A stretch of DNA of 8,463 bases from Chloroflexota bacterium. GTDB lineage: Bacteria > Chloroflexota > Anaerolineae > Promineifilales > Promineifilaceae. The notes beneath the pieces were generated by a model. The model saw nothing but the letters and a program-made list of their open reading frames with translations. It had not been told where the DNA came from and searched no databases. Position numbers and translations under genes: made by a program. The stretch is taken from the NCBI GenBank assembly GCA_008501785.1, contig QQUD01001027.1, forward strand, positions 1 through 8,463, in the 5' to 3' direction. Shown piece by piece: positions 312 to 8,141 of this stretch (position 1 is the stretch's first letter; the number at the start of each line of letters is the position of its first letter).

Positions 312-1197
312 ATTGAATGTGTTGGCTAAATTGTGCGTGAATGGAGTTTGATGAGGTTGTGGCATAACGGCCGTTTAACACCCCCAACATCCCCTTCAAT
401 TTCGAAGGCTGCCCCGTCAGTATCCATTCAAACTGCTCCAAATCCGCCAGCAGCGTATCATCATCCTTATTGGGGTTTTCAACAATTTGTTCAATCACCT
501 CAGCAATAAACATCAAGGCGCTGCTGATTGGGTCGGCATCTGTTGTGGGCAAACGCCTGTACTGAGCGCCGCCGAAGTAGCCGTTTTCACCCCCCATCCC
601 TTCCGGCAAATACACATCTGCCAACGCACGTGACAACATCGGCGCAAATTGAATTGGATCCACCAACGTACGCACATCAATGGCATGGTCTTCACCCAAA
701 ATCGTTGGTAAATATTTTTCGAAGATGGCTTGCAGCGCTTGCGTTAAACGGCCGTAATCCTCATCCGCCGATTCCAACTGCCAATCGCCACTACCTAAAC
801 TAAAAAACGTCATACACTTCAGCGGTCGCCAATCGGCAGGCCAGGTACAACCTTGCTCACCAAGATACACACAGGCCCGTTCATCATGATGCGTCTGCTC
901 AGGCAAGACTGGCAAATCGTGACCCAGCACCGTCAATGCCGCTACATCAATTGGCGTCACTTCCGACGCCCCCACCACACAACACCCCCCCAAGCACATG
1001 CGGCAGAACGGATACGCTTGCCACATTACCTGGTTGTATTTTTGAAAGAGGGTGGTTAGGTGGGAAACGGCCGTTTTCAACCCATCCCCCGCCGCCTCAT
1101 TCCCATCCATCCAGGCCACCAACGCCGCCCGCACCGCATCTACCAATTCCCTATCAGCCAAATATTTCTTATACTCAGGATGTTTAAGCAAGTTCAT
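289..1197 (-). CDS. YkgJ-like cysteine-cluster protein (putative Zn/Fe-binding)
   Basis: A soluble protein of 302 residues (304 if the ATG at 1203 is used). Numbering from that longer form, it has a compact cysteine cluster: C67-x2-C70-x3-C74-C75, then C111, C119 and C130, in the context CRMCLGGCC ... CVYLGEQGC ... DWRPLKC. This spacing, with a final 'R-P-x-x-C', matches the YkgJ / UPF0153 family, annotated as putative zinc- or iron-chelating; its biochemical role is not established. The usual family domain is about 100 residues. Here it sits between an N-terminal helical region (1-60) and a long C-terminal region (about 140-304) that I do not recognise. The ATG at 1197 is preferred because AGGGA (1208-1204) lies 6 nt upstream of it, whereas that site directly abuts the ATG at 1203. 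The 3' end overlaps the convergent transporter gene by 23 bp. Three ACGGCCGT palindromes fall inside this gene. Confidence 0.72.
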   Translation of the reverse strand: MNLLKHPEYKKYLADRELVDAVRAALVAWMDGNEAAGDGLKTAVSHLTTLFQKYNQVMWQAYPFCRMCLGGCCVVGASEVTPIDVAALTVLGHDLPVLPEQTHHDERACVYLGEQGCTWPADWRPLKCMTFFSLGSGDWQLESADEDYGRLTQALQAIFEKYLPTILGEDHAIDVRTLVDPIQFAPMLSRALADVYLPEGMGGENGYFGGAQYRRLPTTDADPISSALMFIAEVIEQIVENPNKDDDTLLADLEQFEWILTGQPSKLKGMLGVLNGRYATTSSNSIHAQFSQHIQFMLHHRF

Positions 1198-1203
1198 ATG
1201 CAT

Positions 1204-1208
1204 TCCCT
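1204..1208 (-). promoter_or_regulatory. Ribosome binding site deciding the YkgJ-like start
   Basis: On the minus strand AGGGA ends directly at the ATG of 1203 but is 6 nt from the second in-frame ATG at 1197. Only the second spacing is workable, so the protein probably starts M-N-L-L rather than M-H-M-N. Confidence 0.55.
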
Positions 1209-1225
1209 AAAACAAAATCCCCCGC

Positions 1226-1234
1226 ATTGTACCA
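1226..1234 (-). promoter_or_regulatory. Possible extended -10 promoter for the YkgJ-like gene
   Basis: The minus strand reads TGGTACAAT: a TACAAT -10 box (one mismatch to TATAAT) with the TGn extension. It would start transcription about 20 nt before the ATG. No good -35 box lies 16-18 nt upstream, as expected for an extended -10 promoter. The same bases form a small ATTGT/ACAAT dyad (1226-1239). This is a visual match only. Confidence 0.35.
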
Positions 1235-1512
1235 ACAATCTCCAACCAAGCGCACCCATTCACCATTCACAATTTATTACTAGACATTGTATTTTTTAGT
1301 TTCGCCTCTAGTAGGATCGTTTCACCACACCCCGGCGATTATCGGAGCCCGATCACACTCTAAACAAGTCGTGGCTATATTCAAAGGGACGGCCCCCTAC
1401 TACCGTACTACTTGTGAATGTAAACATAGCGACTGCGAAGAAAGGCCATTTGGAATATCCTATCAACGGTTTTGGGTCCGAGGGGGAGCCAAATCCATAT
1501 TTTATTATTCAT

Positions 1513-1518
1513 GGGAGG
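1513..1518 (+). promoter_or_regulatory. Ribosome binding site deciding the 5'-nucleotidase start
   Basis: GGGAGG lies 6 nt before the ATG at 1525. That start begins a textbook signal peptide, so the in-frame upstream ATG at 1414 is rejected. Confidence 0.8.
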
Positions 1519-1524
1519 ATACAC

Positions 1525-3261
1525 ATGAAGCATAAATTCGTTGTTTTTATAATGTCATTTTTGGCTGTACTGCTCCTGCTCCCGCAGGCCGCATCTGCGG
1601 CACCGGCAGGCAAAGGGCGTCCCAACCCAAGGAGGCGATTTATCAATCTTCAAATCCTTGGGATCAATGACTACCACGGTCATCTCGAGGCGAACACGCC
1701 TGGCACCGTGGATGGCACCACTGCCGGTGGGGCCGAGTACCTGGCAGCAAAGCTCAATGAGCTGCGCCAGGATCACCGGTACAGCCTGACCGTCGCCGCT
1801 GGCGACCTCATCGGCGGCTCACCGGCGTTCTCCGGTCTCTTCCACGATGAACCGTCCATTGAATCACTAAACGCAATGCAGCTCGACATTTCCAGTGTGG
1901 GCAATCACGAGTTCGACGAAGGCGTAGACGAACTGCTCCGTAAGCAGAACGGCGGCTGTCACCCGGTTGATGGCTGCTACTTCCCCGACCTGCCGTTTGC
2001 CGGTGCCGACTTCCAGTGGCTCGCCGCCAACGTCGTCAACGAAGCTGGCGAAACACCCCTGCCCCCTTACGAAATCAAGAGAATCAGAGGCGTCAAAGTT
2101 GCCTTCATCGGCATGACACTCGAGGCCACTGACACTCTGGTTGCCCCAGCTGGTGCTCTGGGATGGGACTTTCTCGACGAGGCCGAGACCGCCAACAAGC
2201 TCGTACCGATCTTGCGACGCAAAGGCGTCCGGGCTATTGTCGTGCTGCTGCATGAAGGTGGGATGCAGGCCTCGCCTTCTGATGACATAAACTCGTGCGC
2301 CGGCATCTCCGGGCCAATCGTCGCCATCAATGACGCGCTCCATCCCCAGATCGATGCGATCATCACCGGCCACACCCATCAGCCGTACAACTGCGTATTG
2401 CAAGACCCTATTGGCCGGCCACGCATTGTGACAAGCGCTTACTCGTATGGGCGAGTCGTCACTGAACTAAACCTTGTCCTTAACAAGTGGACCAGGAATG
2501 TTAACCGCTACCGGAGTACAGCCACCAATCATATCGTTGATCAGGCCTCTCTGACACCTGATCCGGCACTCACGGCAATCATAGACAAGTGGCAGCCACT
2601 GGTCGACGCGGCTGGCAGCACGCCTGTCGGAACAATTACGGAGTCAATCTTTCGTGGCGGCATCCCGGCCGAAGAGGATCGTGGCGTCGAGTCTGCGGCT
2701 GGCAACCTCATCGCCGACGCTCAACTGTGGGCAACATCGTATAACGGCGCGCAGATCGCGTTTATGAATCCCGGTGGTGTCCGCTCCGATCTAATCTACC
2801 CTGAGTCAACCGGTGAAGGGGATGGGGTCGTTACATATGGCGAGGCATTCATGGTCCAGCCATTTAACAACACACTCTTCACGTTCCCAATGACTGGGGC
2901 ACAGATCATCTCGGTGCTTGAAGATCAATGCCAGCCCACCGGGTCGAGCCGTCCATTCCAGCACCTTGGCGTGTCCGACGGTTTCACCTACGATCTTTCT
3001 AAGACGATAGAGGCGGGTAACTGCACATCGGTAACAGTGAGCAATGTGCAATTGAATGGCGTCCCCCTCAGTCCAACTGATTCGTACCTGGTGACAGTAA
3101 CTATCTACCTTGCCTATGGTCTTGATAATTTCACCACGTTCACTACGATAGACCCATCAACATGGCTTGACGGTGGCAATGACCTCGAAGCATTCGTCAA
3201 CTATCTCGGTACATTTAGCCCGGTTGCCCCACCAATCATCGACCGCGTCAACGAGAATTAA
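1525..3261 (+). CDS. Secreted bifunctional metallophosphatase/5'-nucleotidase
   Basis: A 578-residue exported enzyme of the UshA/CD73 family, which hydrolyses 5'-nucleotides (and often UDP-sugars or 2',3'-cyclic nucleotides) to nucleosides and phosphate outside the cytoplasm. Residues 1-25 are a signal peptide (MKHKF, hydrophobic 5-20, cut near ASA25). The N-terminal two-metal phosphoesterase domain has NDYHGH (48-53; D49, H51), AGDL (D94), GNHEFDEG (126-133), LLHEGG (H243) and GHTH (282-285), so all metal ligands are present. The C-terminal substrate domain has NPGGVR (415-420), YGEAFMVQPFNN (438-449) and GFTYD (486-490). The usual GGDG/GGDN motif near the C-terminus reads GLDN (532-535). 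There is no LPXTG or C-terminal helix, so the protein is probably released. It is monocistronic and ends just before a strong hairpin. Sampled lines are about 55-63% G+C against about 43-50% in neighbouring genes, and the ACGGCCGT palindrome is absent, which suggests acquisition by transfer. Confidence 0.92.
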   Translation: MKHKFVVFIMSFLAVLLLLPQAASAAPAGKGRPNPRRRFINLQILGINDYHGHLEANTPGTVDGTTAGGAEYLAAKLNELRQDHRYSLTVAAGDLIGGSPAFSGLFHDEPSIESLNAMQLDISSVGNHEFDEGVDELLRKQNGGCHPVDGCYFPDLPFAGADFQWLAANVVNEAGETPLPPYEIKRIRGVKVAFIGMTLEATDTLVAPAGALGWDFLDEAETANKLVPILRRKGVRAIVVLLHEGGMQASPSDDINSCAGISGPIVAINDALHPQIDAIITGHTHQPYNCVLQDPIGRPRIVTSAYSYGRVVTELNLVLNKWTRNVNRYRSTATNHIVDQASLTPDPALTAIIDKWQPLVDAAGSTPVGTITESIFRGGIPAEEDRGVESAAGNLIADAQLWATSYNGAQIAFMNPGGVRSDLIYPESTGEGDGVVTYGEAFMVQPFNNTLFTFPMTGAQIISVLEDQCQPTGSSRPFQHLGVSDGFTYDLSKTIEAGNCTSVTVSNVQLNGVPLSPTDSYLVTVTIYLAYGLDNFTTFTTIDPSTWLDGGNDLEAFVNYLGTFSPVAPPIIDRVNEN

Positions 3262-3278
3262 ACGAAGTGCAATAGCAA

Positions 3279-3311
3279 GCTGGCCCCGACCCTGACAGGA
3301 TCGGGGCCAGC
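3279..3311. terminator. Shared hairpin between convergent genes
   Basis: A perfect 11 bp stem, GCTGGCCCCGA (3279-3289) with TCGGGGCCAGC (3301-3311), has an 11 nt loop. It sits 17 bp after the nucleotidase stop and immediately before the 3' end of the minus-strand pdxH (stop at 3313), so it can serve both genes. Neither side has a proper T-run, so intrinsic termination may be weak, or the hairpin may mainly protect the RNA 3' end. Confidence 0.65.
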
Positions 3312-3312
3312 G

Positions 3313-3906
3313 TCATGGCAGCAGCCGCAAAACTTCCCATTTTTCATCTTGACGGGTATACACAAAGCGATCATGTAGACCATCGGGGTTGCCTTGCCAA
3401 AATTCGATTGATTGCGGCACAATGCGATAACCGCCCCAGAAATCAGGCATGGGAATCTGTCCGTCGCGGAATTTTTGTTTAATTTCGGCCCATTTAGCCT
3501 GCATCACAGACCGGGACGTAACCACACCACCCGATTCAGCCAGCCAGGTTCCCATCTGAGTAGCGCGGCGACGAGTGGTGAAGAAACGAAGGACTTCGGG
3601 GGTGGGAAGGGATACGGCCGTTCCCATCACCTTCACCTGTCGCTCCAACACTAACCACGGGAACAGCAGCGACACTTGCGCATTTTCGTCTATTTGTTGC
3701 GCCGTGAGCGTGTTGGTCGCTGAGAAAAAGATGAACCCTTTTGCATCAAAATAACGCAGCAGCACAATGCGCGACGACACCACACCCGTGGCTGAAGCAG
3801 TCGCCAAACTCATTGCATGAGGATAAGGCATTTCTGCGGCCTGGGCATCTTGAAACCACTTCTCAAATTGTGTAAAGGGGTCTTTACTGAGTGAATTGCG
3901 TTCCAT
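3313..3906 (-). CDS. pdxH: Pyridoxamine 5'-phosphate oxidase (PdxH family), divergent
   Basis: A 197-residue cytosolic FMN enzyme of the PdxH family, which oxidises pyridoxine or pyridoxamine 5'-phosphate to PLP. Full-length family features are present: SSRIVLL (44-50), QVSLLFPW (77-84), LERQVKV (87-93), MPDFWGGYRI (153-162), IEFWQG (167-172), LHDRF (177-181) and the C-terminal RLLP. Against E. coli PdxH as I recall it (constant offset of 21), several ligand residues differ: the FMN-phosphate pair R88-K89 is L67-T68; substrate residues Y129 and S137 are F108 and T116; R197 is G176. R133 (R112), H199 (H178) and R201 (R180) are kept. It may therefore be a weak, altered or specialised oxidase. 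It starts inside the end of the upstream aminotransferase gene (23 bp overlap) and is surely co-transcribed; GAGG lies 12 nt before the ATG, a long spacing. One ACGGCCGT palindrome lies within. Confidence 0.87.
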   Translation of the reverse strand: MERNSLSKDPFTQFEKWFQDAQAAEMPYPHAMSLATASATGVVSSRIVLLRYFDAKGFIFFSATNTLTAQQIDENAQVSLLFPWLVLERQVKVMGTAVSLPTPEVLRFFTTRRRATQMGTWLAESGGVVTSRSVMQAKWAEIKQKFRDGQIPMPDFWGGYRIVPQSIEFWQGNPDGLHDRFVYTRQDEKWEVLRLLP

Positions 3907-5017
3907 TTTTTAAATATGCCTCGAATTTTTGCAGCGCTTCACCAAATGCAGCACGCCCTAGACCAATACGCATGTGCTGGTCATCGCTGCCCAGGGTGGT
4001 GGCAGGGTGGATGAGCACACCCGCTTCATCTGCTAGCTGTTTGGAAAGTGCAGTAACAGAGGGGACGTTCATTTTGACGAGAGCGGTGGAGCCGGCTAAC
4101 GGCCGTTTCCACGCAAACAAACCCGGCCATCGTAAACAAAACGCCTCCACTAGGGCCAAATTATGCTCAATCAGGGCAATATTTTTGTCACGAAGCTGAT
4201 CCCGCACTTGCCACGCCACCAACGCTAATAACTCCGAAGGCGCAGGCGGACAAATGCTCGTGTAAAATTTCCAGTTCATCACATTTTGGCGTAGTGCTTC
4301 ATCCTGAATAATCAACCAGCCGGTGCGCAAACCGGGCAATCCATACGTTTTCGACAACCCCGACAGCACAACCGCCTTTTTGCTAACATCGGCCGCTGAA
4401 GGAATGGTAGGCGTGCCTGAATGCACCAATCCATAATACATTTCATCATAAAAAAGCCACAAATCATGCTCTTCGACAATGGCCGCCAATTCATGCAGGT
4501 GGTCTGTTGTGGGCAAATAACCGGTAGGATTATGGGGAAAGTTCACAACCAGCAATTTTGTTTGGGGTGTGATCAGCGTGCGTAAGTGATCAAAATCCAA
4601 CTCCCAGCTATTTTCCCCCGCCGTAAATGCCCACTTATTTACCCGACTTGCACCCACAACATGTTCAAACATGTTGATCAATGCATCGTACGCTGGCGTC
4701 AGCACCACAACTTCATCACTCTCTTCCAGCAGTGCGCGGGCGGCGAGGTAAATGCCTTCCACAGGTGTGCCCAAAACCACAACATCATCAGCTGTGACAC
4801 TGTCATAGGCGTCGGCAATCGCTTCACGCAATTGTGGATTGCCTTGCGATTCTGTATAACCCAATGATAATTGCCCCAATTCAGATAGCGGCACATTGGC
4901 CATTCGCAATAGTTCGTCTACAGTAACGGTTTCGCAATCAGAGTTACACAGTTGGTATGGCGTATTAAATTCATATTGATCAAAAAAATGTTCGGTAGCA
5001 AAAGGGGTGATTTTCAT
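3884..5017 (-). CDS. PLP-dependent aminotransferase, class I/II (fold type I)
   Basis: A 377-residue cytosolic aminotransferase. Visible landmarks are NFPHNPTG (159-166, N163 contacting PLP), YDEMYY (190-195, D191 to the pyridine nitrogen, Y194), SGLSKTYGLPGLRTGW (219-234, with Schiff-base K223 and R231) and HMRIGLG (348-354, with R350 for the substrate carboxylate). The amino donor and acceptor cannot be told from the sequence. The segment that normally reads G-A/S-x-E-A and holds the PLP phosphate with backbone amides is here G83-T-P-V-E-G88, placing a proline in that loop. Start: GGAG lies 5 nt before the ATG, and a TTGACA-like promoter lies upstream. The gene leads a two-gene unit with pdxH, so the PLP user and the PLP-making family member are expressed together. 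One ACGGCCGT palindrome lies at 4099. Confidence 0.88.
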   Translation of the reverse strand: MKITPFATEHFFDQYEFNTPYQLCNSDCETVTVDELLRMANVPLSELGQLSLGYTESQGNPQLREAIADAYDSVTADDVVVLGTPVEGIYLAARALLEESDEVVVLTPAYDALINMFEHVVGASRVNKWAFTAGENSWELDFDHLRTLITPQTKLLVVNFPHNPTGYLPTTDHLHELAAIVEEHDLWLFYDEMYYGLVHSGTPTIPSAADVSKKAVVLSGLSKTYGLPGLRTGWLIIQDEALRQNVMNWKFYTSICPPAPSELLALVAWQVRDQLRDKNIALIEHNLALVEAFCLRWPGLFAWKRPLAGSTALVKMNVPSVTALSKQLADEAGVLIHPATTLGSDDQHMRIGLGRAAFGEALQKFEAYLKNGTQFTQ

Positions 5018-5051
5018 AAAAACTCCAAGGTTGTTTTTTCAGATGCCAGTC

Positions 5052-5079
5052 AATATCTTCTTTTCTGATTTTTTGTCAA
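5052..5079 (-). promoter_or_regulatory. Candidate promoter of the aminotransferase-pdxH operon
   Basis: On the minus strand a perfect -35 TTGACA (5079-5074) is followed after 16 nt by GATATT (5057-5052, 4 of 6 matches). This gives a start near 5045 and a leader of about 28 nt. The -35 is strong and the -10 is weak. Confidence 0.45.
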
Positions 5080-5097
5080 GTAAGCAGTGCCAATTGT

Positions 5098-5127
5098 TTG
5101 ACAACGTTCTTATTTCCCAGCTATGAT
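5098..5127 (+). promoter_or_regulatory. Sigma70-type promoter of the small RHH-like gene
   Basis: TTGACA (5098-5103), an 18 nt spacer and TATGAT (5122-5127, one mismatch) form a near-consensus vegetative promoter. The RNA would start about 24 nt before the ATG at 5158. Its -35 lies only 18 bp from the opposing -35 of the aminotransferase operon, so both promoters share one control region. Confidence 0.65.
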
Positions 5128-5157
5128 GAACCGGGCAAGACAATTTTCTGAGGATAT

Positions 5158-5358
5158 ATGAATAAACGACCAAGACCTTCCCGAAAACATTTCCCCTTAA
5201 AACCGAAAAAGGGTCGAACGCTGGTGGCACGCGTCCACTTAACCAAAGAAGTAGATGAAATGCTGAAATATTTATGGGGGCATTTTCGCCTTTCCATTGA
5301 TGATATTGTTGACGAGGCTGTGCGTGAAAAGTATGCAGAGTTTCATAAAGAAGAATAG
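5158..5358 (+). CDS. Small basic protein, ribbon-helix-helix-like
   Basis: A 66-residue protein with a very basic, probably disordered N-terminus (residues 1-20: K/R/P-rich). It is followed by a predicted beta strand (TLVARVHL, 21-28), a helix (TKEVDEMLKYLWGHF, 29-43) and a second helix (SIDDIVDEAVREKYAEFHKE, 46-65). The pattern 'strand - T/S-x-E-x-x-x-x-L - S-x-x-x-I-V-x-E-A-V-R' resembles the MetJ/Arc/CopG ribbon-helix-helix fold of small DNA-binding proteins, usually dimers. I cannot assign a named family. GAGG lies 4 nt before the ATG and a near-consensus promoter precedes it. No toxin gene follows, so an antitoxin role is not supported. A transcription factor acting on the shared divergent promoter region is an inference. 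Confidence 0.7.
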   Translation: MNKRPRPSRKHFPLKPKKGRTLVARVHLTKEVDEMLKYLWGHFRLSIDDIVDEAVREKYAEFHKEE

Positions 5359-5362
5359 CAAT

Positions 5363-5416
5363 CAGGTATCAGGTGCCAGGTATCAGCTTTCAGCAAGAAG
5401 CTGATACCTGGCACCT
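5363..5416. repeat. Intergenic inverted repeat with direct CAGGTATCAG copies
   Basis: AGGTGCCAGGTATCAGCTT (5371-5389) is perfectly repeated in reverse at 5398-5416 around an 8 nt loop, a 19 bp stem. The decamer CAGGTATCAG appears twice directly, at 5363-5372 and 5377-5386. There is no T-run, so it is not a classical terminator. It has the look of a dispersed intergenic palindromic element, though it may end transcription from the small gene just upstream. Confidence 0.75.
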
Positions 5417-5454
5417 AATAGCTAACCGCTTACTTCACATCACAAGGAGATACC

Positions 5455-6594
5455 ATGGCAAATATTCCACTTTATCAGAATGATCCGCGCTGGAAAGACA
5501 CAGTGATGGGGTTTGGCTCGACTGAAACCATTGGGAATTTAGGCTGTTTGCTCACCAGCTTAACAATGGTGGGCAATTATTATGGGGGAAATGAAACGCC
5601 GGTAACGTTTAATAGTAAAATGAAGCAAGTAGAGGGGTTTCAAGGCCCCTGGGTGCGTGCCTACAAAATTTCTTCAGTTTTCCCCAATGTCAAATACCAA
5701 AAACGGGCACGCAGTACCGATCAGAAAGCGCCAATAGATTTGATTGATGCGGCGCTCAAAGCGGGATCGTTACCTGTGGTGCAGGTTGATTATTCGCCTG
5801 CTGCGGGCGTTCAAAGCCATTGGATTGTTTTGTATAAAAAGCAGGGTGACGATTATTTGATGTGGGACCCGTACAACAGCCCAGAAAAGCCGAATACGTT
5901 AAACGGCCGTTTCGGCTTCGGCGGCACCCCAACAGAAATCATCCAAGACACCATCATCTTTGGCAAAGGCGATTTGGTATTGCCTACAGCAGAAGAAGCG
6001 CCACCCAAGAAAACAACCTCCACAAAAAAACAGGCGCCACGCACGACCACACAAACTTCCACCGCGACAACAACCAGTTCAACCTCATCAAGCGACAAAC
6101 TGGTTGTTGAACCAACCGTCAGCAGCCTTACTCTGCGCCGTCAGCCATCCACAGCCGGTGGCAGCGTCATCAAATATTTGAAGCGCACCGACGATTTGCT
6201 GGTGCTCGAAGCAAGCACCACAGCCAAATCAAAAATCGGCCAGCGCAACCAATGGTTAAAAGTGAAAGACATTGAAGGAAATGAAGGGTATGTTGCCGCA
6301 TGGTACGTAACCCCATCAGATGATCCAGCGTTTGGGGTGCAAGAAGCAACTGAAAACAAACCAACCCCCACCTCACAATTGGTTGTCAAAACAACTGGCA
6401 ACGGTGTCTCCTTACGCACTCAACCCCGTATTTCTAACCAGACATTGATCAAATATCTGCCCTTTGGCACTGAGCTAAAAGTGATTGATAAAGACCCATC
6501 CAAAATTGGCAAGTCGGGCCAATGGTTGAATGTACAAACGATTGACGGCCGTTCCGGCTACATTGCCGCCTGGTACGTCGTCCGCAAAAGATAA
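5455..6594 (+). CDS. C39-like cysteine peptidase with two SH3b domains
   Basis: A 379-residue protein in three parts. Residues 1-172 are a papain-fold domain of the peptidase C39-like type: Q8 (oxyanion), C31 in NLGCLLTSLTM, H122 in SHWIVLY and D138 in MWDPYN form the expected catalytic set. Residues 178-214 are a Thr/Ser/Lys-rich low-complexity linker. Two bacterial SH3 domains follow (about 216-286 and 308-377) that are clear duplicates: LRRQP...IKYL...KIGQRNQWLKV...GYVAAWYV versus LRTQP...IKYL...KIGKSGQWLNV...GYIAAWYV. SH3b domains commonly bind cell-wall peptides, which suggests a wall- or protein-targeted hydrolase. There is no N-terminal signal peptide; catalytic residues begin almost at once, so either export is non-classical or the protein acts inside. 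AAGGAG lies 5 nt before the ATG. Substrate unknown. Two ACGGCCGT palindromes lie within. Confidence 0.82.
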   Translation: MANIPLYQNDPRWKDTVMGFGSTETIGNLGCLLTSLTMVGNYYGGNETPVTFNSKMKQVEGFQGPWVRAYKISSVFPNVKYQKRARSTDQKAPIDLIDAALKAGSLPVVQVDYSPAAGVQSHWIVLYKKQGDDYLMWDPYNSPEKPNTLNGRFGFGGTPTEIIQDTIIFGKGDLVLPTAEEAPPKKTTSTKKQAPRTTTQTSTATTTSSTSSSDKLVVEPTVSSLTLRRQPSTAGGSVIKYLKRTDDLLVLEASTTAKSKIGQRNQWLKVKDIEGNEGYVAAWYVTPSDDPAFGVQEATENKPTPTSQLVVKTTGNGVSLRTQPRISNQTLIKYLPFGTELKVIDKDPSKIGKSGQWLNVQTIDGRSGYIAAWYVVRKR

Positions 6595-6673
6595 ATCACG
6601 AATAAAACGAATAAACGAATGGCACGAATTTTCTTTGGATTCGTGTTATTCGTCCATTTGTGCCATTCGTGAT
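6595..6673. repeat. Long imperfect palindrome built from ATTCGT units
   Basis: The arms 6595-6629 and 6639-6673 (35 nt each) are inverted copies with 8 mismatches around a 9 nt loop. Outer ends are ATCACGAAT / ATTCGTGAT. The right arm is a run of related units: ATTCGTG, ATTCGT, ATTTGTG, ATTCGTG. Four of the mismatched positions become G-U pairs in plus-strand RNA. It begins directly after the peptidase stop codon (6592-6594) and ends 13 nt before the regulator ATG. It probably represents a dispersed intergenic repeat; a terminator role is possible. Confidence 0.7.
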
Positions 6674-6686
6674 AAAAATTCCCCCT

Positions 6687-7547
6687 ATGTTTAAAATTGG
6701 TGACTTTTCACAATTGGGTCAAGTGTCTACGCGAATGTTAAGGCATTATGACAAGCTAGGGTTGCTCAAACCAAGCAATACCGACAAATGGACGGGTTAT
6801 CGTTATTACACAATTGATCAATTGTCGCGGCTGCACCGCATTATTGCACTGAAAGATTTGGGGTTGAGTTTAGAGCAAATCAGCCGCCTGCTGGACAATG
6901 GGGATGATCTGCCAGTGGCACAACTGCGCGGCATGTTGACCATTCGTCGTGCTGACCTTTCACAAGAATTACAAGAAAAGCAAGCTCAGTTGGAACGGGT
7001 AGAAGCCCGTCTAACACATTTAGAGCATGCTGGACAGCCTTCTCCTTACGAAATTGTCGTGAAGTCGCTGCCATCACAGGCGATTGCCTCCATTCGAGAA
7101 CCGGTCCCGTCGGCTCCAGAGATGGAATATTATTGCAAGGTGCATCATGAGCAGCTTTATGCGCTGATGCAGCAGTGTGGAATACGGCCGTTAACCCCCG
7201 AAATCACCCTCTACCACAACAAAGAGTACACTGATGTTGAGCTGGATGTGGAAACGGCCGTTTCTATTCTTCCCAAATACATTAATCAAGCAATTGACAA
7301 TGACTACCTGATCTTGCGTGAGCTGCCTGCTGTTGAGCAAGCGGCTTGCCTCATTTACGAAGGGCCATACCCTGGCATGACGGCTGGTGTGCTGGCTCTA
7401 ATTACTTACATTGGCACACATGGCTTTGTGGCGGCAGGACCGCTGCGTGAAATTCACTTATCTGGACCCACGTATATCGACGGTATTCGTCAAGACCCGG
7501 CAGTGCTGGAGCTGCAAGTGCCGATTGTGCAGTTAACAAATGGTTGA
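6687..7547 (+). CDS. MerR-family regulator with GyrI-like ligand domain
   Basis: A 286-residue transcription factor of the BmrR/TipA type. Residues 1-70 are a MerR winged helix-turn-helix (MFKIGDFSQLGQVSTRMLRHY, then LGLLKPS, GYRYY, and LHRIIALKDLGLSLEQI). Residues 75-115 form the dimerising coiled coil (QELQEKQAQLERVEARL). Residues 120-286 are a GyrI-like effector-binding domain with YEIVVKSLP, a DVELDVETAV strand, LIYEGPYPG and the conserved acidic position E255 in PLREIHL. Such proteins bind hydrophobic or cationic compounds and twist promoters with 19 bp spacers to activate export or detoxification genes; the target here is unknown. The ATG at 6687 fits the family N-terminus; an in-frame ATG at 6660 lies inside the palindromic repeat. 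No Shine-Dalgarno is visible at either. Two ACGGCCGT palindromes lie 70 bp apart (7184, 7254). Confidence 0.87.
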   Translation: MFKIGDFSQLGQVSTRMLRHYDKLGLLKPSNTDKWTGYRYYTIDQLSRLHRIIALKDLGLSLEQISRLLDNGDDLPVAQLRGMLTIRRADLSQELQEKQAQLERVEARLTHLEHAGQPSPYEIVVKSLPSQAIASIREPVPSAPEMEYYCKVHHEQLYALMQQCGIRPLTPEITLYHNKEYTDVELDVETAVSILPKYINQAIDNDYLILRELPAVEQAACLIYEGPYPGMTAGVLALITYIGTHGFVAAGPLREIHLSGPTYIDGIRQDPAVLELQVPIVQLTNG

Positions 7548-7616
7548 AACAATGGAAGAGAATAATTCACCAATTAATTATTTTCCTATTTCTTTTCTAA
7601 AAAAAGTGACCTTCAA

Positions 7617-8141
7617 ATGACAAAACGGCCGTTTCTCCCCCTCACCCTCTTCATCCTTACAACCCTTGCATGCAGCTTATTCACCACACGCGAAATCACC
7701 AGCAAAAATCCTTGGGTTCAAAATCCGCCCCAATTAAACGGTAATTATTCAGAAACGGGGCAAGTTGTTGACATAATCGATGGGGATACAATTGATGTAA
7801 TGATTGACGGCGAGGAATATCGTGTCCGCTACATCGGTATCGATACACCGGAGCGGGATGAGGTTTGCTACAATGAAGCCACAGCTAAAAACAGTGCCCT
7901 GGTTGCCAATCAGACGGTGCGGCTAGTGCAAGATGTGAGTGATGTGGACAGATACGGCCGTTTACTCCGCTACGTCTACGTCGATAACCTGCTCGTTAAT
8001 GCCGAACTCGTGGCCGGTGGCTGGGCCGAATCCAAAGCATACCGCCCCGATACCGAACTCCACAACTTCATGGAAGACCTGGAATCCGATGCCGCCAATG
8101 CTCAACGTGGCTGTTACCCTACCGGCATCTTCAACAAATAA
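7617..8141 (+). CDS. Thermonuclease (SNase domain), predicted lipoprotein
   Basis: A 174-residue Ca2+-dependent nuclease of the staphylococcal nuclease family, cleaving DNA and RNA. The N-terminus MTKRPF, a hydrophobic run (7-18) and TLAC19 resemble a lipoprotein signal, so the enzyme is probably anchored on the outer face; the -3 position (T16) is not ideal for a lipobox. The SNase domain covers about 46-172. All catalytic equivalents are intact: D57 (D21 of S. aureus nuclease) in IDGDT, R71 (R35) and D76 (D40) with E79 (E43) in RYIGIDTPE, and R115 (R87) in DRYGR. Two extra cysteines, C84 and C166, could form a disulfide. No clear Shine-Dalgarno precedes the ATG and the 69 bp upstream gap is A/T-rich without a convincing promoter. 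Co-transcription with the regulator is possible. Two ACGGCCGT palindromes lie within, one at codons 3-5. Confidence 0.88.
   Translation: MTKRPFLPLTLFILTTLACSLFTTREITSKNPWVQNPPQLNGNYSETGQVVDIIDGDTIDVMIDGEEYRVRYIGIDTPERDEVCYNEATAKNSALVANQTVRLVQDVSDVDRYGRLLRYVYVDNLLVNAELVAGGWAESKAYRPDTELHNFMEDLESDAANAQRGCYPTGIFNK

Follow-up and report, generated by a model that had tools for sequence, protein, structure and literature searches.

Contig QQUD01001027.1 of a Chloroflexota bacterium (assembly GCA_008501785.1) raises the question of why a single palindromic octamer, ACGGCCGT, recurs so often in so short a stretch of DNA, and what the cell may do with it. The stretch analysed (the window, 8.46 kb) contains 11 exact copies against 0.10 expected, and none of 200 shuffled sequences reaches 11. 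A preliminary description of the window, made from the letters alone, had given 11 copies against about 0.13 expected; the recount agrees, and the iteration of ACGGCCGT in the window is real. The octamer is also the most frequent 8-mer of the window. The hexamer CGGCCG occurs 13 times against 2.31 expected, and these 13 copies include the 11 octamers, so that A...T flanks enclose 11 of 13 cores, as first described. All 11 octamers lie inside open reading frames (ORFs) taken as genes. Five copies are in minus-strand ORFs and six in plus-strand ORFs, and all three phases are represented. The early claims that all three phases and genes of both orientations are used, and that protein sequence does not account for the enrichment, both hold, with codon and protein explanations excluded. 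The sites and the two bare cores are as follows.

367..374, no strand: ACGGCCGT site within minus-strand ORF 289-1203
748..755, no strand: ACGGCCGT site within minus-strand ORF 289-1203
1067..1074, no strand: ACGGCCGT site within minus-strand ORF 289-1203
2666..2671, no strand: CGGCCG core without A...T flanks, from the hexamer count
3614..3621, no strand: ACGGCCGT site within the pyridoxamine-phosphate-oxidase-like gene 3313-3906, minus strand
4099..4106, no strand: ACGGCCGT site within the aminotransferase gene 3884-5017, minus strand
4390..4395, no strand: CGGCCG core without A...T flanks, from the hexamer count
5903..5910, no strand: ACGGCCGT site within the C39-like/SH3 gene 5455-6594, plus strand
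6545..6552, no strand: ACGGCCGT site within the C39-like/SH3 gene 5455-6594, plus strand
7184..7191, no strand: ACGGCCGT site within the MerR-family gene 6660-7547, plus strand
7254..7261, no strand: ACGGCCGT site within the MerR-family gene 6660-7547, plus strand
7625..7632, no strand: ACGGCCGT site within the SNase-like gene 7617-8141, plus strand
7954..7961, no strand: ACGGCCGT site within the SNase-like gene 7617-8141, plus strand

ACGGCCGT is a highly iterated palindrome (HIP) of one order of uncultured Chloroflexota. This order (that of genome G004, sampled with 56 genomes) is probably Promineifilales, the window's own group. The density of ACGGCCGT in 27 of the 56 genomes is 0.99-2.10 per kb; genome sizes are rounded to 0.1 Mb, so these values are approximate. 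Genome G012 contains 15,176 copies in 7.5 Mb and 183 of the reversed word. The preliminary description had named a genome-wide count near expectation as what would refute its reading. The relatives do not have such a count: in the 7.7 Mb of G013, for example, there are 14,867 copies against 185 of the reversed word. In the phylum-wide sample of 400 genomes, none of the 397 outside the order exceeds about 0.1 ACGGCCGT per kb, a threshold read from the count table, and the maximum is 408 copies in 4.3 Mb. The core is more widely favoured within the order. CGGCCG outnumbers the reversed GCCGGC in 52 of the 56 genomes (the exceptions are G008, G020, G026 and G027), with extremes of 13,814 to 51 in G045 and 21,019 to 132 in G005. 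The aminotransferase of the window is 88% identical to the nearest other database protein and 75-76% identical to a protein of Candidatus Leptofilum, which taxonomy places in Promineifilales, Chloroflexota. Among 80 loci fetched with this aminotransferase, ACGGCCGT is the top palindromic octamer in L007, L009 and L013, and L001 contains 37 copies of a different octamer, TCGGCCGA, in 21 kb and none of ACGGCCGT. The sample from G031, an iterated genome (L123 and L142, 19 kb pooled), contains only four octamers, and GAGCTC is over-represented in it (25 against 6.5); the sample is perhaps partly foreign DNA.

In 25 genomes of the order (448 kb), there are 679 copies of ACGGCCGT against 14.6 expected by an order-2 Markov model, an excess of about 46-fold. 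Variants that differ by one letter at the outer base are enriched when A becomes T (TCGGCCGT, 3.5 times expectation) or G (GCGGCCGT, 1.9 times) and are at expectation when A becomes C (CCGGCCGT, 1.0 times). Variants at the second base are depleted (0.30, 0.31 and 0.62 times). Outside the octamer, A is found at -1 in 46% and at -2 in 32% of sites, and G at -3 in 46% and at -4 in 53%. The wider (A/T)AACGGCCGTTT preference proposed for the window is present there and extends only in part to the 25 relatives, where it fails at the G-favouring positions -3 and -4. In 415 kb of G013, 814 sites are distributed at 1.97 per kb in coding and 1.70 per kb in noncoding DNA, and all codon phases are occupied, unevenly. 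Site pairs less than 50 bp apart are scarce relative to a random spread (48 against 76 expected in G013, 18 against 51 in G001). A codon or protein artefact, chance and a local cluster are all rejected by the window count, the genome-wide counts and the intergenic density.

The flanks of the core differ between lineages. Typing was done on approximately 3-45 kb per genome, with G013 and G001 on 415 kb; the opening stretches of G034 and G042 are given as N. G015 and G001 iterate TCGGCCGA (9,414 and 7,668 copies), which numbers 2,070 or fewer in the other genomes of the order. These two genomes are sisters with full support in the rpoB tree, so a single switch to TCGGCCGA is sufficient. G045 iterates GCGGCCGC (16 copies in 15.9 kb against 0.4 expected). 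G026 is a core switch: it iterates TGCCGGCA, which has a different core, with 3,665 copies genome-wide and 14 of ACGGCCGT (loci L136, L344 and L345). G005 and G049-G055 are rich in CGGCCG with no dominant flank, and in two of them, G005 and G049, ACGGCCGT is still mildly over-represented (1,727 and 2,982 copies). The CGGCCG core thus persists through flank changes, and the flanks, and once the core, differ between lineages. The early view that the octamer is the unit holds for the window's lineage; in relatives the hexamer core outlasts changes of flank. The sequence traits of a HIP are found here: a perfect palindrome, a genome-wide excess in relatives, independence of frame and strand, intergenic presence and related replacements in relatives. 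Deviations at the outer bases are also found, though the change from A to C is only at 1.0 times expectation.

The most informative fact of the analysis is a convergent strand skew in the flanks, a feature outside the claims of the preliminary description. Each strand is G-rich and C-poor on the 5' side of the site, and the pattern is mirror-symmetric and fades over tens to a few hundred base pairs. In G013, GC skew is 0.300 at 5-10 bp from the site, 0.212 at 11-20 bp, 0.121 at 21-40 bp and 0.031 at 41-70 bp. In G001, the values for the same bins are 0.160, 0.151, 0.104 and 0.061, with 0.033 at 161-250 bp. The reach is therefore tens of base pairs in G013 and approximately 250 bp or more in G001. 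The skew is strongest at third codon positions (0.525 at 5-10 bp, G013). It is also found around noncoding sites, its two sides are equal and it does not change with the direction of transcription. Around the window's own 11 sites, skew is 0.62 (5-10 bp), 0.53 (11-20 bp) and 0.31 (21-40 bp), with bootstrap intervals that exclude zero; at 41-70 bp it is 0.08 and the interval includes zero.

This skew follows the iterated word. Other palindromic octamers, pooled, have skew within 0.03 of zero in G013 and G001 (795 and 1,157 sites), and one interval lies just above zero (G013, 11-20 bp, 0.002-0.046). Small single control sets scatter more: CAGCTG (32 and 36 sites) reaches a GC skew of 0.077 in absolute value beyond 4 bp, and TGATCA in G013 has 0.054 at 5-10 bp. 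In G013, CGGCCG without the A or T flank has a skew of -0.002 (5-10 bp) and 0.037 (11-20 bp). Per genome, at 5-40 bp, all 27 testable ACGGCCGT-type genomes are positive, and for G003 and G031 the interval spans zero. For this comparison 28 such genomes were sampled, 27 with at least five sites; G034, with one site, was left out, and the stretches partly overlap, so a few sites may count twice. Where the iterated octamer changes, the skew moves with it: it is 0.130 (G001) and 0.206 (G015) at TCGGCCGA, 0.215 at GCGGCCGC in G045 (16 sites) and 0.106 at TGCCGGCA in G026 (30 sites). Hexamer-type genomes have a weaker skew, from 0.000 to 0.092 in G005 and G049-G054 and -0.021 in G055. In seven genomes with weak iteration it is close to zero, at -0.006 to 0.033. 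In five rpoB columns, third-position skew at 5-40 bp is +0.255 where the site is present (n=54) and -0.041 where it is absent (n=76). The skew differs with site presence at the same column, so context alone does not explain it, although the cases are dependent through kinship. Selection for a hairpin or cruciform is rejected, as left-right complementarity equals the compositional expectation. A Chi-like flank motif is also rejected, since no single word is prominent and the most frequent words are G-rich, largely as expected from composition. No 10-bp helical period is apparent in the flanks, and no correlation is found between left and right flanks.

The preliminary description had proposed examining orthologues, and in the two genes compared, rpoB and the gene of a candidate methyltransferase described below, sites are kept above controls. 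Pairs are of ACGGCCGT-type genomes, and controls are 8-mers of equal GC content with identical amino acids, a match that does not fully remove codon preference. In rpoB, site windows with identical amino acids are identical in 293 of 399 comparisons (73%) against 8,562 of 44,617 controls (19%). In the methyltransferase gene, the figures are 104 of 126 and 4,674 of 16,609. The rpoB set contains 26 of 30 genomes (G004 and G006 gave no match, and G017 and G019 are in pieces) and its 56 site cases come from seven columns and related genomes. At one rpoB position the site recurs in 15 of the 16 ACGGCCGT-type genomes and is absent from all 10 others. When the amino-acid condition is lifted, rpoB sites are shared in 70% of comparisons and controls in 11%. 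Most of the compared site pairs, with both genes pooled, are below 78% base identity (1826 of 1996). Sites endure where the protein endures and turn over elsewhere.

The search for an orphan methyltransferase, also proposed at the outset, yields a candidate with partial coverage. This candidate amino-methyltransferase (approximately 660 amino acids) is present in 29 of 31 octamer genomes and 14 of 25 others (Fisher p=0.0013); the octamer genomes are the 27 strong ones with G003 (0.44 per kb), G001, G015 and G045, and the two without a match are G007 and G043. Its presence in 43 of 56 genomes counts whole and partial matches, omits weak matches in G026 and G054 and stands against genome completeness that is not known. 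The p value is optimistic because the link between candidate and octamer is clustered by kinship: the label changes 4 times on the enzyme tree against 13.1 when shuffled, and 3 times on the rpoB tree against 9.1. The enzyme tree contains 38 of 41 sequences, since pieces shorter than 380 residues (G020, G023 and G003) were left out. Among the four genomes without CGGCCG excess, the candidate is not found in three and is a partial match in one. The protein carries an S-adenosylmethionine fold with a (D/N/S)PP(Y/W/F) motif of the amino-methyltransferase type. It scores 76 bits against NF042963 (DUF1156 anti-phage methyltransferase), far below the curated cut-off of 1000. On these sequence grounds, the orphan amino-methyltransferase is the best candidate reader of the site, as yet unproven.

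Other enzymes correspond less well. Among the 56 genomes of the order, PF00145 is matched in 26 and PF01555 in 52 (E≤0.001). A universal 5-methylcytosine (m5C) methyltransferase is rejected, as 30 of the 56 genomes have no PF00145 match, and no m5C enzyme of this family is coextensive with the octamer, with no match in 13 of 27 strong genomes. Clustering of 30 PF00145 and 30 PF01555 proteins from the fetched loci gives no group wider than seven genomes. One m5C-type enzyme group is common to G005, G050, G051 and G036. The very long enzyme branches of G001 and G015 had suggested faster evolution of the candidate at the flank switch; this was dropped, since the rpoB branches of both genomes are also rather long.

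The octamer is also found in viral and mobile DNA. Viral contigs scanned for two octamers near each other, a criterion that favours dense contigs, give at least 120 stretches. In 15 viral stretches (at least 8 sites, 0.8 per kb), 337 sites have a skew of 0.023 (interval 0.003-0.042). The phage- or plasmid-like L391, L428, L379 and L387 contain 3.0-3.7 ACGGCCGT per kb, above any bacterial genome counted. L391, L428 and L379 encode proteins with matches to phage or plasmid families (ParA, ParB, helicase loader and an endolysin-type domain), and one protein search from HIP-rich viral contigs gave no named relative.

The Pfam-matched genes of the window are ordinary: 5'-nucleotidase-like, pyridoxamine-phosphate-oxidase-like, aminotransferase, C39-like/SH3, MerR, SNase-like and a PucC-like end. 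The product of ORF 289-1203 (304 residues, several cysteines) has no match in Pfam or PHROGs.

The early assignment to a HIP1-like class is supported by an 8-bp palindrome with a hexamer core, by the size of its excess, by its use of all phases and of genes on both strands, and by its genome- and order-wide extent. The ACGGCCGT system is of the HIP kind and is not HIP1 proper, as both sequence and phylum differ. Cyanobacterial HIP1 is GCGATCGC, and the alternate HIPs given by Elhai (2015; PMC4390886) are TCGATCGA, GGGATCCC, GGCGCC, rCCGGy and GCsGC. The same paper places HIP1 deviations mostly at the outer bases. The two systems share a GC-rich palindrome with a hexamer core, a density of roughly 0.5-2.5 per kb, one-off variants that are commonest at the outer bases and related palindromes that replace the word in some relatives; the cyanobacterial system is also linked to solitary methyltransferases (PMC4390886). 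They differ in that the Chloroflexota core, CGGCCG, has no A, and in the size of the flanking skew, which is much larger in Chloroflexota (at 5-10 bp, 0.30 in G013 and 0.013 around HIP1). In 20 cyanobacterial genomes (L249-L268, 645 sites), HIP1 skew at 5-10 bp is indistinguishable from zero. A weak skew of the same sign spans 21-400 bp, away from the site, with values of 0.039 (21-40 bp), 0.038 (41-70 bp) and 0.024 (161-250 bp) and intervals above zero; this is a hint only. G194, in the phylum of G058 and taken as a cyanobacterium, has 14,949 copies of GCGATCGC in 4.1 Mb, the top count among 194 genomes.

Three other known systems are comparable in part. M.Ssp6803II of Synechocystis is described as an N4-cytosine methyltransferase at GGCC that affects replication and repair (PMC6560206). 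Its target sits inside CGGCCG but is four bases long. The Anabaena GGCC enzyme, Alr1052, belongs to PF02086 (PMC4390886). The DNA uptake sequence (DUS) and uptake signal sequence (USS) of Neisseriaceae and Pasteurellaceae are short words over-represented in many copies (PMC1939737, in part); the Chloroflexota site differs as a perfect palindrome with rare close pairs. Dam GATC/MutH mismatch repair in Escherichia coli discriminates strands at a palindromic site (PMC4390886), as is proposed here for ACGGCCGT. The preliminary description knew of no such octamer outside cyanobacteria, and no description was found in the open-access literature among the matches listed. This search touched flanking GC skew little, so the skew is not claimed as new.

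Repeated, conserved sites with a mirror-image strand bias suggest some cellular activity on the DNA at ACGGCCGT. A sequence-specific protein would read the site, most likely an orphan DNA methyltransferase such as the candidate above, and DNA repair or recombination would then enter at the marked sites and tell the two strands apart there. As an account drawn from sequence, this has about an even chance of being correct. A nick or break at the site, followed by 5'-to-3' removal of one strand, would expose the 3'-ended strand on each side, and this would be exactly the strand that carries the bias. Repeated patch synthesis or damage on the exposed strand may then leave the skew. If every lesion must have a site close enough to be used, the density would stay near one per 0.5-1 kb.

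Several observations weigh against this account. The candidate enzyme is not found in the strong ACGGCCGT genomes G007 and G043, both of which have sites and skew, and it is found in 14 genomes of weak or no octamer iteration. The hexamer-type genomes G005 and G049-G054 are without it, yet G049 has 19,906 CGGCCG against 768 GCCGGC. The bias is mainly a change of G for C, and T-A skew is approximately 0.05 or less beyond 4 bp, a poor fit to simple cytosine deamination of an exposed strand. In E. coli K-12, 240 GATC sites in 50 kb have no flanking skew. The methyltransferase gene, which changes faster, shares 22% of its sites against 11% of controls when the amino-acid condition is lifted, so many sites turn over. 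Dense viral sites have almost no skew, so sites can accumulate without it. If the viral contigs infect this order, sites accumulate faster than skew, which would favour skew as a slow result of host processing.

Four rival explanations were weighed. Under binding-site selection, ACGGCCGT would be bound by a protein that organises the nucleoid or chromosome, a G-rich 5' and C-rich 3' surround would aid its binding, wrapping or translocation, and sites and flanks would both be selected with no repair involved. A palindrome suits a dimer, G is favoured at -3 and -4, orthologous sites are conserved and the skew tracks the site. Direct contacts are expected to be short and patterned, however, and the observed flanks fade smoothly over tens of base pairs (G013) to 250 bp or more (G001), with no motif, no 10-bp period and no correlation of left with right; binding-site selection is accordingly unlikely. 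The octamer could also be a functionless by-product of methyl-directed mismatch repair that creates and freezes octamers, as in Elhai's ratchet model for HIP1, with conservation reflecting repair bias and not selection. The enriched outer-base one-offs, as in HIP1 (PMC4390886), the shortage of close pairs and the turnover of sites in the methyltransferase gene agree with this, and the skew would mark strand-specific repair. The rpoB site kept in 15 of 16 ACGGCCGT-type genomes argues the other way, given that the compared site pairs of both genes are mostly below 78% base identity; a weak bias would hardly be enough, which leaves the by-product model with a small chance.

Biased uptake of kin DNA during natural transformation would likewise accumulate a marker octamer, and density and persistence resemble those of DUS and USS. 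These words are directional and have lineage dialects. The Chloroflexota sites have lineage-specific dialects as well, and A is favoured just outside the core. The octamer is, however, palindromic and not directional, its close pairs are too few and a convergent strand skew is no obvious outcome of uptake, so that an uptake function is improbable. Codon usage, protein sequence, a local cluster or chance can draw on uneven phase use and nothing more. The occupation of all phases and both strands, the similar intergenic and coding densities in G013, the genome-wide counts in relatives and the rarity of the reversed word leave it with practically no chance.

The iteration is genuine and widespread and belongs to the HIP class, and the literature searched yielded no description of such a system for this phylum. 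What HIP1 does is still an open question, and the HIP literature found comes from a single phylum. The Chloroflexota order adds a second system in a different phylum, order-wide in extent, whose natural flank and core changes act as independent replicates. The skew separates the models, since any of them must explain G replacing C on the strand that leads into the site, on both sides and over tens to hundreds of base pairs. More tentatively, and with somewhat less than an even chance, iterated palindromes in general may be programmed, strand-discriminating processing sites: repeated removal and resynthesis of one strand from a lineage's marked palindrome would produce a convergent skew over 50-250 bp, a signature of HIP-directed repair or recombination that would be strong in this order and weak at HIP1 (0.02-0.04, from 21 bp outwards). 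Through the skew, what began as a statistical curiosity predicts where nicks, breaks or repair tracts would lie.

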